A stretch of DNA of 64,000 bases from Candidatus Nanohalarchaeota archaeon (GTDB lineage: Archaea; Nanohalarchaeota; Nanosalinia; Nanosalinales; JAFCCC01), in NCBI GenBank assembly GCA_017610385.1, contig JAFCCC010000003.1, positions 1 to 64,000 on the forward strand, read 5' to 3'. The notes under the pieces are model-generated. The model saw only the letters and a program-made list of their open reading frames with translations. It was not told the DNA's origin and ran no database searches. This document shows, in pieces, positions 1,513 through 64,000 of this stretch; positions within the stretch are counted from its first letter, which is position 1, and every line of letters begins with the position of its first letter. The position numbers were made by a program, and so were the translations under genes.

Positions 1513-2328
1513 TTATAAATCATCTAAAGGACTTTGAATATTTTTTAATTTGCTGTTTGCAACATGAGTATAAATTTGGGTTGTTTGTAATCTTGAATGA
1601 CCCAACAAAGTTTGTATATATCTTATGTTTATTCCTTTTTCCAATAAATGGGTTGCGAAACTGTGTCTTAATGTGTGACAACTTACCTTCTTTTTAATGT
1701 TTGCTTTTTTTGCAGCATATTCAAATATTTTTTGAACAGCTTTTATAGAATATTTGTTATTTCTTCCTAAAAATAAATATTTTTGATGCTGTTCAAGCGC
1801 AATATAATTTCTAAGGTCTGGTTTTAGTTTTTCCGGAAGCATAACATACCTTTGTTTATTTCCCTTTCCTAATATTTTTACTACATTTCTTTCAAAATCT
1901 ATATTATTTACTTCTAGATTTACAAGTTCTGAAACCCTTAAACCCAAACCATAGAGACATTTTAATACTAATTTGTGTTTCGTGTTATTTGCAGAATTTA
2001 TTATCTTTTTTACTTCTTCTTTTGAAAGTACGGTTGGAAGTTTATTTTCCCGTTTTGGTCGTTTTATATTTTTACAAATATCTTTTTTTAAGACGTTCCC
2101 GAAAAAGAATTTTAGTGAACTTATGGCCAAATTTGCAGTGATATTGGTATAATGTTTTTTTATAATTAAATACCGAAGATATTTTTTAATATCTCTTTCT
2201 TGAATTTGTGGTATTTCTTTTTTGATAAATTTTAAGAAATCTTTTACAAAATAACTATAAGATTTTTTTGTTTTTTTGCTAAGGCCTCTACAATCCAATT
2301 CGAGTTCCAGTTTCTCAAGTTCGTCCAT
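1513..2328 (-). CDS. Tyrosine recombinase (XerA/IntI-like integrase of the cassette array)
   Basis: Site-specific tyrosine recombinase of 271 residues. An N-terminal SAM-like core-binding domain is followed by the catalytic domain with the full R-K-H-R-H-Y set: R131 (GLRVSEL), K155 (GKGNKQR), H218 and R221 (HTLRHSFATHL), H244 (GHSRLQTTQ), Y253 (IYTHV). It ends in SPLDDL, a C-terminal signature also common in integron integrases. The roughly 30-residue IntI-specific insertion before the HxxR box is not visible: only a short linker joins the LPEKLKPDLRNYI strand to the next helix. I chose the ATG at 2328 over the upstream ATG at 2367 because the TATA box lies at 2347-2358. It is divergent from the cassette array, the classical intI geometry. 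It could instead be the chromosomal XerA. Confidence 0.88.
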   Translation of the reverse strand: MDELEKLELELDCRGLSKKTKKSYSYFVKDFLKFIKKEIPQIQERDIKKYLRYLIIKKHYTNITANLAISSLKFFFGNVLKKDICKNIKRPKRENKLPTVLSKEEVKKIINSANNTKHKLVLKCLYGLGLRVSELVNLEVNNIDFERNVVKILGKGNKQRYVMLPEKLKPDLRNYIALEQHQKYLFLGRNNKYSIKAVQKIFEYAAKKANIKKKVSCHTLRHSFATHLLEKGINIRYIQTLLGHSRLQTTQIYTHVANSKLKNIQSPLDDL

Positions 2329-2346
2329 ACATACATTTTTAATTGA

Positions 2347-2358
2347 TTTATATATAAA
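2347..2358 (-). promoter_or_regulatory. TATA box of the integrase gene
   Basis: The sequence TTTATATATAAA is centred about 24 nt upstream of the ATG at 2328. That spacing predicts a leaderless mRNA and argues against the longer ORF starting at 2367, which would place the TATA box inside the coding region. Confidence 0.6.
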
Positions 2359-2370
2359 AATGTGCATATA

Positions 2371-8857: not shown

Positions 8858-8954
8858 AAAAGTGAATTTGGGGCCAAAGAATAAAAAGATGAATTGAGTC
8901 TTTTTGTTAAGTTCGATGCGGCCATGGTCTAATGGCTATGACCCCGGCCTTCCA

Positions 8955-9054
8955 AGAAGCTGAATTATCAGCTTGCACTAAAAGACGTTTCGTTCGTAAA
9001 AACGAACTTAATCGCCTGCAAAAGTTTATACTTTTGTTTACCCTTTTCGAAGAA
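8955..9054 (+). other. tRNA-Gly intron 1 (37/38)
   Basis: BHB: outer helix CCGGC/GCCGG, 3-nt bulge AAA, central 4-bp helix CTTC/GAAG (8949-8952/9049-9052), 3-nt bulge CAA, inner helix GAAG/TTTTC. The intron body is a row of hairpins: AAGCTGA/TCAGCTT, GTTCGT/ACGAAC and CAAAAGT/ACTTTTG. Ends are placed by the usual cut after the second bulge base. Confidence 0.88.
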
Positions 9055-9075
9055 AGCCGGTGATGCGGGTTCGAT

Positions 9076-9161
9076 TTAGCCTTTACCCAAAGTGCGGAAG
9101 CTTAATTTCCGCTAACGCTTTTTTGCGTTTACTTTTGCGAAAAAAGGTTAGGTTACGAAAA
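9076..9161 (+). other. tRNA-Gly intron 2 in the T loop (59/60)
   Basis: BHB: outer helix GCGGG/CCCGC (the T stem), bulge AAT, central helix TTCG/CGAA (9070-9073/9156-9159), bulge ATT, inner helix TAGCC/GGTTA. The intron body again consists of hairpins, including GCGGAA/TTTCCGC and ACGC/GCGT, with the linker TTTACTTTTGCGAAAA seen in other hairpin blocks of the window. Confidence 0.87.
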
Positions 9162-25792: not shown

Positions 25793-26085
25793 AATTTAAT
25801 CACCTCTTAGATTAAGCATAAATTTTATTTTTGTATGAGAATAACTCGTGCGCAAATTTTTAAAGATATCCTTTTCTTTACGTTATACCTTTCGGTAATT
25901 TCTAAATAATACTTTAATCATAAAAATATTTAAAGTAGTAGTACTATTCTAATGCTTCTTGATTTTTGGTTTTATTTAAAAACGATTAATCTTTTTCTTT
26001 CTTTGGCGCCTTTAATATAAATTACACATTTAAATCTTATTCTTTGTATAAATTTTAATGATGGACCCGTAGCTCAGCTGGTTAG

Positions 26086-26106
26086 AAATCTTTAGAGATT
26101 AGCTAG
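26086..26106 (+). other. tRNA-Ile intron 1 in the D arm (22/23), 21 nt
   Basis: Central helix GGTT/AGCT (with two G-U pairs), bulges AGA and AGA, inner helix AATC/GATT. Cutting after the second bulge base joins AGCTGGTTAG to AGCG and restores the D stem exactly. Confidence 0.8.
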
Positions 26107-26121
26107 AGCGCCAGTCTTATA

Positions 26122-26149
26122 TGGCTTCGTTTTGTATGTTGCCGAAGTA
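26122..26149 (+). other. tRNA-Ile intron 2 (37/38), 28 nt
   Basis: Outer helix CCAGT/GCTGG, bulge TAA, central helix CTTA/GAAG with one A-G mismatch, bulge TAT, inner helix GGC/GCC. The canonical position and 3-nt bulges make the assignment firm despite the mismatch. Confidence 0.82.
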
Positions 26150-26185
26150 AGCTGGAGGCCGTGGGTTCAAATCCCATCGGGTCCA

Positions 26186-26262
26186 ATTAAGTAAGCTTTT
26201 TAGATAAAAGCCCAAGCGAAAAGGAGTCTCACTCGTTTGAGTTTATTAAATAAGTTAATTTG
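26186..26262 (+). repeat. Hairpin block downstream of tRNA-Ile
   Basis: AAGCTTTT/AAAAGC followed by the linker CCAAGCGAAAAG and a second weak inverted repeat GAGTCTCACTCGTTTGAGTTT. The linker AAGCGAAAAG equals the one at 105-115. This probably contains the tRNA 3' trailer and a terminator-like structure. Confidence 0.5.
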
Positions 26263-26306: not shown

Positions 26307-26939
26307 ATGAAAATTTTTGCGGTAGGAGATCTTCATGATCAGGAAAAAGTAGAAAAAGGAATTTTAAAGGAGTTAGAGACTGGTGACTATGAGCTTTTTA
26401 TTGGTTTAGGGGATTATACAAAGAAAAAGTATTTTGAAGACCTAATGAAAAAAATTAAAATCCAAAAAGCTTGTTTAACTGGTAATTGGGATTTTAATTT
26501 TAAAATGCCGGAAAATGGATCTATTCCAAATTTGTTTAATTTTGTGAAAGTTAATTTAAAAGCAAAAGACGGAGAATACAAAATAGTTTTATTAGGAGCA
26601 CAAATTCCACCGGATTTCCAAAAGGACATTAAGGACTGGTTAGATGATTTTGATCGCTCTAAATTAATTATTTGTTCACATTATCCTCCCTATTTATTAA
26701 GAGATCTTGCTGAGAATGGAGATCATGCTGGCATTAAAGAATTTCGGGACACTATCCTAAGATTAAAGCCTGCATTGTGGTTGTGTGGACATATCCATGA
26801 AGCTTCTGGATTCACTAAATTTTTGAGAACAACAATATTAAATGCTTCAGCATGTGATATAAATTATAAGCCAATTCGAGCAGGATATTCCATTGATATA
26901 AGTGAGAATGGCATTACGATTCAGGAGATTAAACTTTAG
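26307..26939 (+). CDS. Calcineurin-like metallophosphoesterase
   Basis: A 210-residue two-metal phosphoesterase. All metal-binding blocks are present in order: GDLHD (7-11), GLGDYTK near 35, TGNWDFNF near 57 (N of GNxD/H), SHYPPY near 125 and CGHIHEASG near 160. The family hydrolyses phosphomono- or diesters; the substrate is unknown. I chose the ATG at 26307 over 26286 because the beta-strand MKIFAVGDLHD should start the domain. The TAG stop codon shares its last base with tRNA-Ala. Confidence 0.87.
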   Translation: MKIFAVGDLHDQEKVEKGILKELETGDYELFIGLGDYTKKKYFEDLMKKIKIQKACLTGNWDFNFKMPENGSIPNLFNFVKVNLKAKDGEYKIVLLGAQIPPDFQKDIKDWLDDFDRSKLIICSHYPPYLLRDLAENGDHAGIKEFRDTILRLKPALWLCGHIHEASGFTKFLRTTILNASACDINYKPIRAGYSIDISENGITIQEIKL

Positions 26940-27012
26940 GGCCTGTAGATCAGTCTGGTAGATCGCTACCTCGGCATGGTAGAGGCCTCGGGTTCGAATC
27001 CCGACAGGTCCA
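26939..27012 (+). tRNA. tRNA-Ala(GGC), intronless
   Basis: A 74-nt cloverleaf. Acceptor GGGCCTG pairs with CAGGTCC and includes the G3-U70 pair that marks tRNA-Ala. Anticodon stem CTACC/GGTAG, loop TCGGCAT with anticodon GGC (26973-26975), T stem TCGGG/CCCGA, discriminator A. Position 33 is C instead of the nearly universal U. The first base is the last base of the TAG of the preceding gene. Confidence 0.93.
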
Positions 27013-27015
27013 TTT

Positions 27016-27105
27016 GAGCTTTCACAAAGCTCAAGCAAACAGCGAGTTACGAGTGTAACTCACTAAGCCTTTTTAATAAAAGACGTAAGCCAAAAGAATA
27101 ACTAG
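27016..27105 (+). repeat. Hairpin block downstream of tRNA-Ala
   Basis: GAGCTTT/AAAGCTC, linker AAGCAAACAGC, GAGTTAC/GTAACTC, then GCCTTTTTAATAAAAGAC and AAGCCAAAAG. The stems differ from those of the other blocks but the AAGC(A/C/G)AAA linkers recur. GAGTTA./.TAACTC is also present at 41.72 kb. Confidence 0.5.
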
Positions 27106-40787: not shown

Positions 40788-41480
40788 TTATTTCACCTTT
40801 TTTGATTCCTCATCTAACCAATGAGTTATTTTATCTGTTAAACCAGAAGTATGTGCTTCAGCTTCAACCTTTTTAATGGCCCGAACTGCCAATTCTTCGT
40901 TATTTCCTTTTAACCACACTCTTCCATTTTGACCCACAATAATTACACAACCAGTCTTGTCTTTTATTGTACCAACCATTGTACCACTTTTACCAATTAA
41001 TCTGGGAACCTTTGTATGAGAAATTTCAATTATTCGTCCTCCAATTAACTTCTTGGCTCTTCTATCTTTCATAGTTAATTGAACATCTTTCGTTTGTGTT
41101 ACTTTTTTAATTTTTACAACAATCGTGTCGTCTATATCGTAGAAATCCTCTAAAGATTTCTCATTTAAATCAATAAACTCTTCAGTTCCCTCACTCAATG
41201 GCAAAATTCCTTCATATGGTGAATTTAAATCCACCTGCCAAATCGCGTGAGATACCCTACTAATGTAACCAATAACAAAATCATTCTCTCGTGGAATGTA
41301 TTTCCCTTTTAACGGAATTACTCTTACTAATCTATTATTCTTAAATTCTGCGACTCCCAAATATTTGGAGACAATTTTTTTATCATTTCTATAAGTTCCT
41401 GGTCCCGGCAAATAATCCATTCCCTCGAATAGAGCTTCACCAGGTATAACCAAACTTTTATCTTTTACTAATTCTGACAT
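40788..41480 (-). CDS. rrp4: Exosome RNA-binding cap subunit Rrp4
   Basis: A 230-residue protein with the N-terminal domain (IPGEALFEGMDYLPGPGTYR), the S1 domain (DFVIGYISRVSHAIWQVDLN) and the KH domain (KVPRLIGKSGTMVGTIKDKT). It forms the cap that guides RNA into the exosome. It is the first gene of the leftward superoperon rrp4-rrp41-rrp42-L37Ae-rpoP-pcc1-pfdB-UPF0147-sepF. SBDS and proteasome alpha genes, often upstream in archaea, are absent; a repeat block lies there instead. Confidence 0.95.
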   Translation of the reverse strand: MSELVKDKSLVIPGEALFEGMDYLPGPGTYRNDKKIVSKYLGVAEFKNNRLVRVIPLKGKYIPRENDFVIGYISRVSHAIWQVDLNSPYEGILPLSEGTEEFIDLNEKSLEDFYDIDDTIVVKIKKVTQTKDVQLTMKDRRAKKLIGGRIIEISHTKVPRLIGKSGTMVGTIKDKTGCVIIVGQNGRVWLKGNNEELAVRAIKKVEAEAHTSGLTDKITHWLDEESKKVK

Positions 41481-41559
41481 ATTATCACTTTATTAAGAAT
41501 CGAGGTTACCTAAAATCATTCTTTATCAACGGTCTGAACTCAATTCTATTTTTCCTTTT

Positions 41560-42020
41560 TCACTTACTACTAAGAATCGAAAGCTTTATTAACGTAACGG
41601 CCAGCTTCGTTGATGTGCTTGTTGAAGTAATTTATAGTTTATTTTATTTTGTATGTGTATAAGTGAGGGGACTTTCGAAGGGCTGTTACCTAACAGCTGA
41701 AATGCCAGCTGGCACCAACAGCGAGTTAACTGAATGTTAACTCACTTCACTTTTTGCATAATTAAATAAAGAGTGCTTTATAAAGTGCGTATAGCCTAAA
41801 GCGTTGATTAACTTGACCGGAAAATATAATTTAAGGTTAAGTTAGCCCAATCACGTTAATCAATTAACCGGTTTCGCGGTTAATTTTGCTTGAGCTTTTA
41901 CTAAAAAGCTCACGCGTTAACCGATTTCCCGGTTACTTTTGTGAAGGGAACTTCTGAAGGAACGTCGCATAAAGTGCTGCCTGATTTTGCAGGCATCCGA
42001 GCGCTCGGAGTTAAACACAA
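41560..42020. repeat. Hairpin-rich non-coding block between rrp4 and the DNA ligase gene
   Basis: The gap between the divergent genes holds no ORF but at least eight inverted repeats: GCTGTT/AACAGC (41692-), TGCCA/TGGCA, GAGTTAAC/GTTAACTC, GTGCTTTA/TAAAGTGC, TTAACCG/CGGTTAA, GAGCTTTT/AAAAGCTC-like, GTTAACCG/CGGTTAC and TGCC/GGCA closed by GATTTTGCA. GTGA(A/G)GGG..CTT.(T/C)GAAGG occurs twice (41663-41682, 41941-41960) and twice again at the right window edge. No SRP, RNase P or other known RNA could be recognised. Confidence 0.6.
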
Positions 42021-42051
42021 CTTTAATAGAATATACTTCTAAAAATTATTT

Positions 42052-43758
42052 ATGAAATATTCTAAATTAGCTAAAATTTATGAAAAATTAGAAAGTAATG
42101 GTTCAAGTTTAAAGAAAACAGAAATATTAGCTAATTTTTTAAAAGATAAGAATGCGGAAGTTTTAGATAAATTAATTCTTTTAGCAATGGGACGACCTTT
42201 TCCAGAATGGAGTGAACTTGATTTAGGAATTGCAGCTCAATTAATGATTGAAGCAATTTCAAAGGTAAGCGGTATTTCTAAAAAAAAGCTTAATAATTAC
42301 TGGAGGGAACAAGGAGACTTAGGTTTAGTCGCTGAAAAAGTTTTACAAAATAAAACTCAAAGAACCTTATTTTCCCGGTCTTTAAACATTGAAGAAGTTC
42401 ACAGAAATTTTCAAAAAATTGCAGTAACAGAAGGTTTAAATTCACAATCTCGAAAAATTGCATACATTTCAGAGTTGTTGGCCAATGCAGAACCCTATGA
42501 AGCAAAATATCTTGTAAGAACGATTTTACAAACTCTACGAATTGGTGTAGGTTCGGGAGTTGTTCGAGATGCCATTGTACAGGCATTTGATGTTGAAAAG
42601 GATTTAGTTGAAAGAGCCCACGAGGTTAGTAATGATTTTTCGAAAGTGGCAGTAATTGCAAAAGAAAAAGGAAATGAGGGATTAAAAAAAGTCAAAATGG
42701 AGCTTTTTAAGCCGGTTAGATCCATGGATGCTCAAAAAGTTAGAGATGTAGAAGAAGGATTCAAACGCGTTCAGAATAAAGATGGATTTTTGGTTGTAGA
42801 ACATAAATTAGATGGAATGCGTTGCCAAATACATAAAAACAAAGATAAAATACGTATATTTACAAGACGCCTGGAAAATGTTACAAAACAGTTCCCAGAA
42901 ATTACTAACTTTATTAGAGATCATGTTTCTGCTGAAAAATGTATTATAGATTCAGAACTTACTGCGTATGATCCACAAACAGGGAATAACTTGCCTTTTC
43001 AAGAACTCTCAAAGCGCATTAAAAGAAAATATGATATTGAATTAATAGTAAAAGCGATTCCCGTTTTTATCAACGCATTTGATCTCTTATTCTTAAATGG
43101 AAAAAATTTGATTACGAAACCATACAAAAAGAGATGGAATGAATTAAACGAGATTGTTGAAGAAAAAGAAAAAGAATTTGTTTTAGTTACTCATTTAGAA
43201 ACAGATAAGCCCGAAAACGTTAAAAAATTTTACAAAAGATCTTTAGAACTTAAAAATGAGGGTATTATGTTCAAAAATCTAGATGCAGAGTATAAGCCTG
43301 GTTCTAGAGTTGGTCATATGGTTAAATTAAAGCCGATTATGGAAACATTGGATTTAATAATAGTTGAAGCCGAATGGGGTGAAGGAAAACGATCTAATTG
43401 GCTATCTTCTTTTAAATTAGCGTGTCAGAATGAAACAGGAACCCCCGTAACTATTGGTAAAATGGCTACCGGATTGACAGAAGAACAATTTAGTGAAATA
43501 ACAGAAAAACTAAAACCGCTAATTCTTGAAGAAAGTGGTCGAACAGTTAAGTTAAAACCTCAAATTGTGTTAGAGGTGGCTTATGAAGAGATTCAAAGAA
43601 GTCCAACTTATGAATCGAGGTTTGCATTGAGATTTCCTCGGTTAGTACAATTCAGAGACGATCTAAGCCCAGAAGAGATAGATGACATTAAAAAAGTGAA
43701 AAATTTGTATGATGCACAGAAGCAACACAGAAGTATGGGGGTTAAGAAACGCATTTAA
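42052..43758 (+). CDS. lig: ATP-dependent DNA ligase
   Basis: A 568-residue replicative ligase. N-terminal DNA-binding domain (1-215), adenylation motif I EHKLDGMRCQIHK with the nucleotide-accepting K252, motif III TRRLENVT, motif IIIa, ELTAYDP, motif IV EGIMFKNLD near 406 and motif V MVKLKP near 427, then an OB-fold with TYESRFALRFPR. This is the archaeal length and type. It starts directly after the hairpin block. Confidence 0.96.
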   Translation: MKYSKLAKIYEKLESNGSSLKKTEILANFLKDKNAEVLDKLILLAMGRPFPEWSELDLGIAAQLMIEAISKVSGISKKKLNNYWREQGDLGLVAEKVLQNKTQRTLFSRSLNIEEVHRNFQKIAVTEGLNSQSRKIAYISELLANAEPYEAKYLVRTILQTLRIGVGSGVVRDAIVQAFDVEKDLVERAHEVSNDFSKVAVIAKEKGNEGLKKVKMELFKPVRSMDAQKVRDVEEGFKRVQNKDGFLVVEHKLDGMRCQIHKNKDKIRIFTRRLENVTKQFPEITNFIRDHVSAEKCIIDSELTAYDPQTGNNLPFQELSKRIKRKYDIELIVKAIPVFINAFDLLFLNGKNLITKPYKKRWNELNEIVEEKEKEFVLVTHLETDKPENVKKFYKRSLELKNEGIMFKNLDAEYKPGSRVGHMVKLKPIMETLDLIIVEAEWGEGKRSNWLSSFKLACQNETGTPVTIGKMATGLTEEQFSEITEKLKPLILEESGRTVKLKPQIVLEVAYEEIQRSPTYESRFALRFPRLVQFRDDLSPEEIDDIKKVKNLYDAQKQHRSMGVKKRI

Positions 43759-63878: not shown

Positions 63879-64000
63879 AACTCACTTCACTTTTTCGTAT
63901 TTGCGTGAAGGGGGCTTCTGAAGGAATTTCACATAGAGCATTAACCGATTTTGCAGTTATTTGAGTGAAGGTTGCCTTAAGAAGTGCTTGCCGCCTGAGT
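63879..64000. repeat. Copy of the 41.6-42.0 kb repeat at the right edge
   Basis: AACTCACTTCACTTTTT (63879-63895) is identical to 41739-41755. GTGAAGGGGGCTTCTGAAGG (63905-63924) matches 41941-41960, and TTAACCGATTTTGCAGTTA has the same loop as TGCCTGATTTTGCAGGCA with a different stem. A further partial unit starts at 63965. The block is cut by the window end. Confidence 0.6.

Follow-up and report, generated by a model that had tools for sequence, protein, structure and literature searches.

Palindromic elements that insert at many sites, and that have been reported in RNA genes too, are known from Rickettsia. The units described here are not in-frame coding insertions. Bacterial REP/BIME sequences and REPINs consist of short palindromic units, intergenic and covarying, that make up mosaic arrays (PMC3116915), while archaeal and bacterial MITEs are small, non-coding, multi-copy elements, mostly intergenic and rich in inverted repeats (review PMC10969869). 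For archaeal tRNA genes, transposition of introns in Thermoproteales was the subject of a 2010 study (summarised in PMC4090602), and a mobile-element model derived from Caldiarchaeum treats tRNA genes as landing sites of a 1.8-kb element with a recombinase gene, the disruption leading to intron gain and scattered fragments (PMC3293823).

The structured block between rrp4 and the ATP-dependent DNA ligase gene of a Nanohalarchaeota archaeon shares the properties listed above with REP/BIME sequences and REPINs (PMC3116915). However, it is archaeal, its relatives are found mainly in tRNA transcripts and introns, and no REP-associated Y1 transposase (PF01797, the one class searched for) was found in the assembly, which is 93.5% complete. 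Likewise, the block is MITE-like in its general character, but differs in its variable mosaic composition and in that no terminal inverted repeats were found (PMC10969869). As in the Caldiarchaeum model, tRNA genes appear as landing sites, although the present units are non-coding hairpin arrays of about 30-470 nt rather than a 1.8-kb element (PMC3293823). Relative to the Thermoproteales introns, as far as they are covered by that summary, the recurring units are short hairpin modules and not whole introns, and they extend to the 5' and 3' flanks of tRNAs and to spacers with no tRNA nearby (PMC4090602). In the open-access literature, no description was found of palindromic repeats common to tRNA introns, tRNA flanks and spacers.

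Structure of the rrp4-ligase spacer

In the analysed stretch of 64,000 nt (hereafter the window), rrp4 (minus strand, ATG at 41480) and the ligase gene (plus strand, ATG at 42052) form a divergent pair. The gap between them, 571 nt in length (41481-42051) with a GC content of 0.36 and no ORF of 60 aa or more, is the longest non-coding gap in the window, and its folding score is among the strongest there. Folding of 41640-42020 gives -126 kcal/mol against a mean of -90.6 for dinucleotide shuffles (z -6.45), the minus strand gives z -5.84, and none of 100 shuffles was as stable on either strand. The preliminary description of a long and stem-rich spacer is thus borne out, albeit within narrower limits than the 41560-42020 proposed: the structured element spans about 41663-42009 (~350 nt), whereas the first 100 nt (41560-41660) are without match to other copies, matches elsewhere starting at query position 107. 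Strong folding of both strands is as observed with DNA palindromes. The nearest tRNA found is 14.6 kb away; searches for a hidden or split tRNA in the block gave no match, and no T-loop was recognized by eye.

The element is a mosaic of hairpin modules, which in our own reading of the copies comprise types A, B, C and D plus an H-type hairpin. Module A has the consensus GTGA + AGG...CCT + AAAG, module B is TGCCTG/CAGGCA or TAACCG/CGGTTA, module C is the best conserved core of the family, and module D is a twin hairpin with the linker GCACCAACAGC. From rrp4 to the ligase gene the features are as follows, with the basis of each assignment in brackets.

41663-41691: diverged copy of module A, GTGA followed by the hairpin AGGGGAC...GTTACCT (sequence, other copies, covariation)
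41694-41756: module D, twin hairpin of CAGCTG/CAGCTG, the linker GCACCAACAGC and GAGTTAAC/GTTAACTC (copies, covariation)
41771-41801: degenerate copy of module A, ending in GCCTAAAG (comparison with loci L010 and L013)
41804-41863: module C, stem TTGATTAAC...GTTAATCAA with the best conserved inner sequence CTTGACCGGAAAATATAATTTAA (own-genome copies)
41864-41883: module B hairpin, TTAACCG gtttcg CGGTTAA (sequence, covariation)
41888-41915: H-family hairpin GCTTGAGCTTTTACTAAAAAGCTCACGC, of the type that fills tRNA introns (sequence comparison)
41917-41935: module B hairpin, TTAACCG atttcc CGGTTA (sequence, covariation)
41941-41974: module A, GTGAAGGGAACTTCTGAAGGAACGTCGCATAAAG (sequence comparison)
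41978-41995: module B hairpin, TGCCTG attttg CAGGCA (sequence, covariation)
41996-42009: 14-bp palindrome TCCGAGCGCTCGGA, closing the array on the ligase side, 43 bp upstream of the ligase ATG
42022-42035, plus strand: TATA-like stretch TTTAATAGAATATA of the ligase gene, predicted from the sequence alone

The motif earlier noted at both ends of the block is indeed a copy of the same module, but a diverged one, as GTGAGGGGACTTTCGAAGGG at 41663 is only 14/20 identical to the sequence at 41941. The copy proposed at 63.9 kb is confirmed: GTGAAGGGNNCTTCTGAAGG occurs exactly at both 41941 and 63905, with 0.03 chance matches expected at up to 3 mismatches. The inner sequence CTTGACCGGAAAATATAATTTAA of module C is 95% identical in contig C8 and is present also in C10 and at 126 kb in C13, and module D adjoins the 5' end of tRNA genes at other loci.

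The compensatory differences between hairpin copies that had been pointed out are real. The stem at 41978-41995 (TGCCTG/CAGGCA) differs in its letters from TAACCG/CGGTTA yet pairs equally well; in another family, hairpins of this type occur within an intron of tRNA-Arg and in the 3' flank of a tRNA-Pro. In modules A, B, D1, D2 and H, pairing holds in 86-96% of cells across the copies, a proportion favoured by the choice of the stem arms by hand as hairpins, which was made because MAFFT did not align modules D and A in keeping with their structure. Each stem has 2-3 pairs altered on both sides, which exceeds nearly all column shuffles in the five module types. Since the arms were hand-picked and the copies are related, these data demonstrate conserved palindromy rather than proving an RNA function.

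The strong fold (z -6.45) and the covarying hairpins would also be expected if the spacer held a gene for a structured non-coding RNA, as had been suggested. However, the two strands fold about equally well, and the order of the modules is different in every copy. Moreover, nothing relevant came from Rfam 15 at gathering or relaxed thresholds: with the cutoff relaxed to E 1, the block gave a single hit, a meaningless one of 14 bits (E 0.66) that falls well short of the gathering score. We consider such a gene very unlikely.

Module copies at tRNA genes

The genome assembly comprises 788,277 bases in 18 contigs, and copies were counted by similarity searches, in which diverged copies and some tRNAs may have gone unnoticed. 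At E <=0.001 the block has matches at 17 places of its own genome, the best partial copies being those in C13 (197 nt, 90% identical), C10 (242 nt, 81%) and C8 (99 nt, 95%). Altogether, module copies are found at 12 further loci, or 13 clusters with the focal block. A search with one tRNA intron as query revealed a sister family of H hairpins at 36 places, corresponding to ~20 further loci beyond the query. By our reading, every copy is a different combination or order of the common hairpin modules. The block is consequently a dispersed-repeat array and not a one-off RNA gene or replication site; neither the genome-wide dispersal nor the link to tRNAs featured in the preliminary description.

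The copies are strongly associated with tRNA genes. With tRNA zones (gene plus 150 nt) covering about 2.1% of the genome as the expected fraction, 5 of the 13 focal-family clusters, the focal block being counted among the 13, are either inside a tRNA gene or no more than 150 nt from one (binomial P 4.5e-6), as are 14 of the 21 H-family clusters, the query included (P 3e-19). The conclusion is the same when the self-matches are left out (5/12 and 13/20 loci, respectively). Modules abut tRNA 5' ends in C10, C11 and C9 and tRNA 3' ends in C9, C11 and C3 (at 64 kb), and they fill introns of tRNA-Pro(GGG) (276 nt), tRNA-Trp (177 nt), tRNA-Pro(CGG) (151 nt) and tRNA-Gly(GCC) (79 nt). The orientation is also maintained: the focal minus strand corresponds to the tRNA sense strand in all five tRNA-linked clusters of the focal family, and 11 of the 14 H-family clusters (query counted) are oriented towards their tRNA as the query intron is. 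As the other copies mostly flank or interrupt tRNA genes, the focal block is read as an array of this dispersed repeat standing away from any tRNA. Unlike archaeal tRNA introns it is not within a tRNA gene, but its modules occur in introns elsewhere. Related arrays and hairpins within the window are the following.

1-125: H-family hairpin array at the contig start, the assembly breaking in the repeat
8916-9128, plus strand: tRNA-Gly gene that by our own reading has one intron in the anticodon loop and another in the T loop, with hairpin modules in the introns and an H-family search match at 9120-9150
26192-26221, plus strand: H-family hairpin 6 nt 3' of tRNA-Arg (26062-26186)
27013-27098, plus strand: hairpins of both H and D type flanking tRNA-Ala (26939-27012) on its 3' side
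63879-64000: second A/B-type array, 3' of the tRNA-Pro at C3:64012-64084 (minus strand, just past the window end)

The tRNA-Gly and tRNA-Arg genes of this list seemingly have two introns each (one T loop, one D arm; our own reading), and neither is called by default tRNA finders. Minimum-energy folds of the module-filled pre-tRNAs do not clearly resolve the intron junctions as bulge-helix-bulge motifs. Folding scores of tRNA flanks in six genomes gave weak averages (z -0.9 for the 3' flanks of the own genome, near 0 in genome G004), and hairpins at all tRNA flanks are therefore not a general rule of the order. A lack of RNase P as the cause of hairpin leaders was rejected, the RNase P RNA being present.

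H-family arrays are located at several contig ends (C3:1, C6:1, C12:2, C9:1, C9:42590 and C11:176423), and these repeats thus probably break the assembly. Close to the array at the contig start, the window encodes a tyrosine recombinase of the phage-integrase family (1513-2367, minus strand). Exact-pattern scans of viral contigs for the conserved core and the H hairpins gave no match, and neither did a scan for the core in public genome contigs, from which records of the own genome may be omitted.

Searched against the other 27 genomes of the order, the block yields a single match at E <0.001, located in a tRNA-Arg(CCU) intron of G001, which belongs to another family; a weaker match in G007 consists of the end palindrome alone. 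The tRNA-Pro(GGG) 3' flank in G001 contains TGCCTGCAATCAGGCAGCACTTGAGCGTCC..GGACGCTC, that is a B hairpin and its linker followed by a hairpin in place of A. By our reading, D-like twin hairpins occur in introns and flanks of the same genome, with linkers such as CGATCATCACG that are present also in the own genome. Long introns are found in families f3 and f5 as well, and few in the f4 genome examined. A separate observation concerns three loci in G007 and G005 (L200, L204 and L209): downstream of some tRNAs, a hairpin is followed by another T arm and acceptor, a second copy of the tRNA 3' half that looks like the product of a duplication around an insert.

The earlier comparison with MITEs came closest, in that the block is non-coding, palindrome-rich, multi-copy and dispersed, with mostly intergenic copies. 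A classical MITE would be a DNA transposon that is non-autonomous, bears terminal inverted repeats and depends on a transposase for its mobility, and one array, C13:126373-126652, does lie exactly between two TCCGANNNNTCGGA palindromes (these have different centres). Still, the mosaic copies vary in length, order and ends and stop at different modules, and the block has internal inverted repeats only, with none at constant termini. The dense occupation of tRNA introns is untypical of MITEs, and no Y1 transposase was found in the assembly. A MITE in the strict sense is in our judgement quite improbable.

The end palindrome

The TCCGANNNNTCGGA pattern, of which TCCGAGCGCTCGGA is the form at the ligase-side end, has 21 genomic sites, compared with a single one for the reversed control, and 15 of the 21 have exactly the GCGC form. 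The sites are spread over eight contigs without clustering, and most are intergenic by our ORF criterion, many of them 31-64 bp upstream of start codons. Genes downstream of the palindrome include those for the ligase, an HhH-GPD DNA glycosylase, a KaiC-like ATPase, a Crp-type regulator, NAC and PolD DP2, with no clear common theme. At array-bearing loci the palindrome is on the gene side.

These properties are in part those of a regulatory element, in which the array, above all TCCGAGCGCTCGGA, would serve as an operator or upstream activating site of the ligase gene, and perhaps of rrp4, within a regulon defined by the shared palindrome. The excess of sites over the control and their positions before start codons argue for it, as does an exact copy 41 bp before a gene in G007, from another family. 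On the other hand, the downstream genes lack a common theme, and the palindrome is found also inside the introns of tRNA-Trp and tRNA-Gly(CCC) and in two coding regions. Moreover, most sites are without a hairpin array, so that regulation would cover the palindrome and not the array. This explanation retains some weight but is, on balance, unlikely. The palindrome itself may be a protein-binding site beside which arrays settle, or the end of a repeat unit; the latter is favoured by the copies inside the two tRNA introns.

The coding regions with an exact copy (L102 and L111) were identified by eye as genes for a PolD small-subunit-like protein and a Trm1-like methyltransferase. At the loci in C12 (L106/L128) and C13 (L107/L129), TCCGAGTACTCGGA lies inside a T-loop intron of a tRNA-Gly(CCC), and TCCGAGCGCTCGGA follows just after a different tRNA-like gene, which has a probable T-loop intron of its own. 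In C14, a LAGLIDADG-domain gene (L126:2782-3750, Pfam E 7e-13) that runs into a tRNA gene has TCCGAGCGCTCGGA about 64 bp upstream; it is a possible homing endonuclease and is mentioned as a lead only.

A perfect 14-bp palindrome in many copies also recalls partition sites, and a replication origin or segregation site had been among the first suggestions. The GC skew shows no turn near 41.8 kb, however, and an origin was rejected on this count; the sites and the array copies are scattered round the genome, and related modules reside in tRNA introns. Such a role appears extremely improbable.

A probable passenger of tRNA transcripts

The explanation that we favour, and hold to be fairly probable, is that the block is a REP/BIME-like mosaic array of palindromes, a near-neutral passenger housed mainly in the leaders, introns and trailers of pre-tRNAs that has spread to spacers upstream of promoters. 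In tRNA transcripts the hairpins would be cut out by RNase P, the 3' processing enzyme and the splicing endonuclease, and insertions would cost little because this processing removes them. Units could therefore accumulate in the removable parts, leader, intron and trailer, with an orientation that tracks the tRNA in most loci, the focal minus strand being equivalent to tRNA sense. They would pass from one locus to another, recombining in cassettes, and a few arrays would reach non-coding DNA directly upstream of promoters, as may have happened here between rrp4 and the ligase gene, beside a 14-bp palindrome common before genes. The array is most likely non-autonomous, spread via recombination or transposition at the DNA level, and probably without a function specific to rrp4 or the ligase gene. 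As a counter-point, selection for function could underlie both the covariation, seen in every module, and the unvarying position of the end palindrome.

A further and rather doubtful possibility is that the hairpin units of the order's tRNA introns, leaders and trailers constitute a new class of tRNA-linked mobile repeats, which move between pre-tRNAs, perhaps via excised (circular) intron RNA or endonuclease-driven recombination, and escape to promoter-upstream sites.

In practical terms, tRNA finders miss tRNA genes in this genome and assemblies break at these repeats, and the notion of a mystery RNA or origin in the spacer gives way to a dispersed-repeat reading that can be tested. The exchange of modules among tRNA loci could be followed, together with the related modules in the second family of the order. 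If the mobile tRNA-linked class is real, it would be a source of intron gain. For the question of how archaeal tRNA genes gain introns, modules common to introns, tRNA ends and spacers provide an intermediate that lends itself to tracing.
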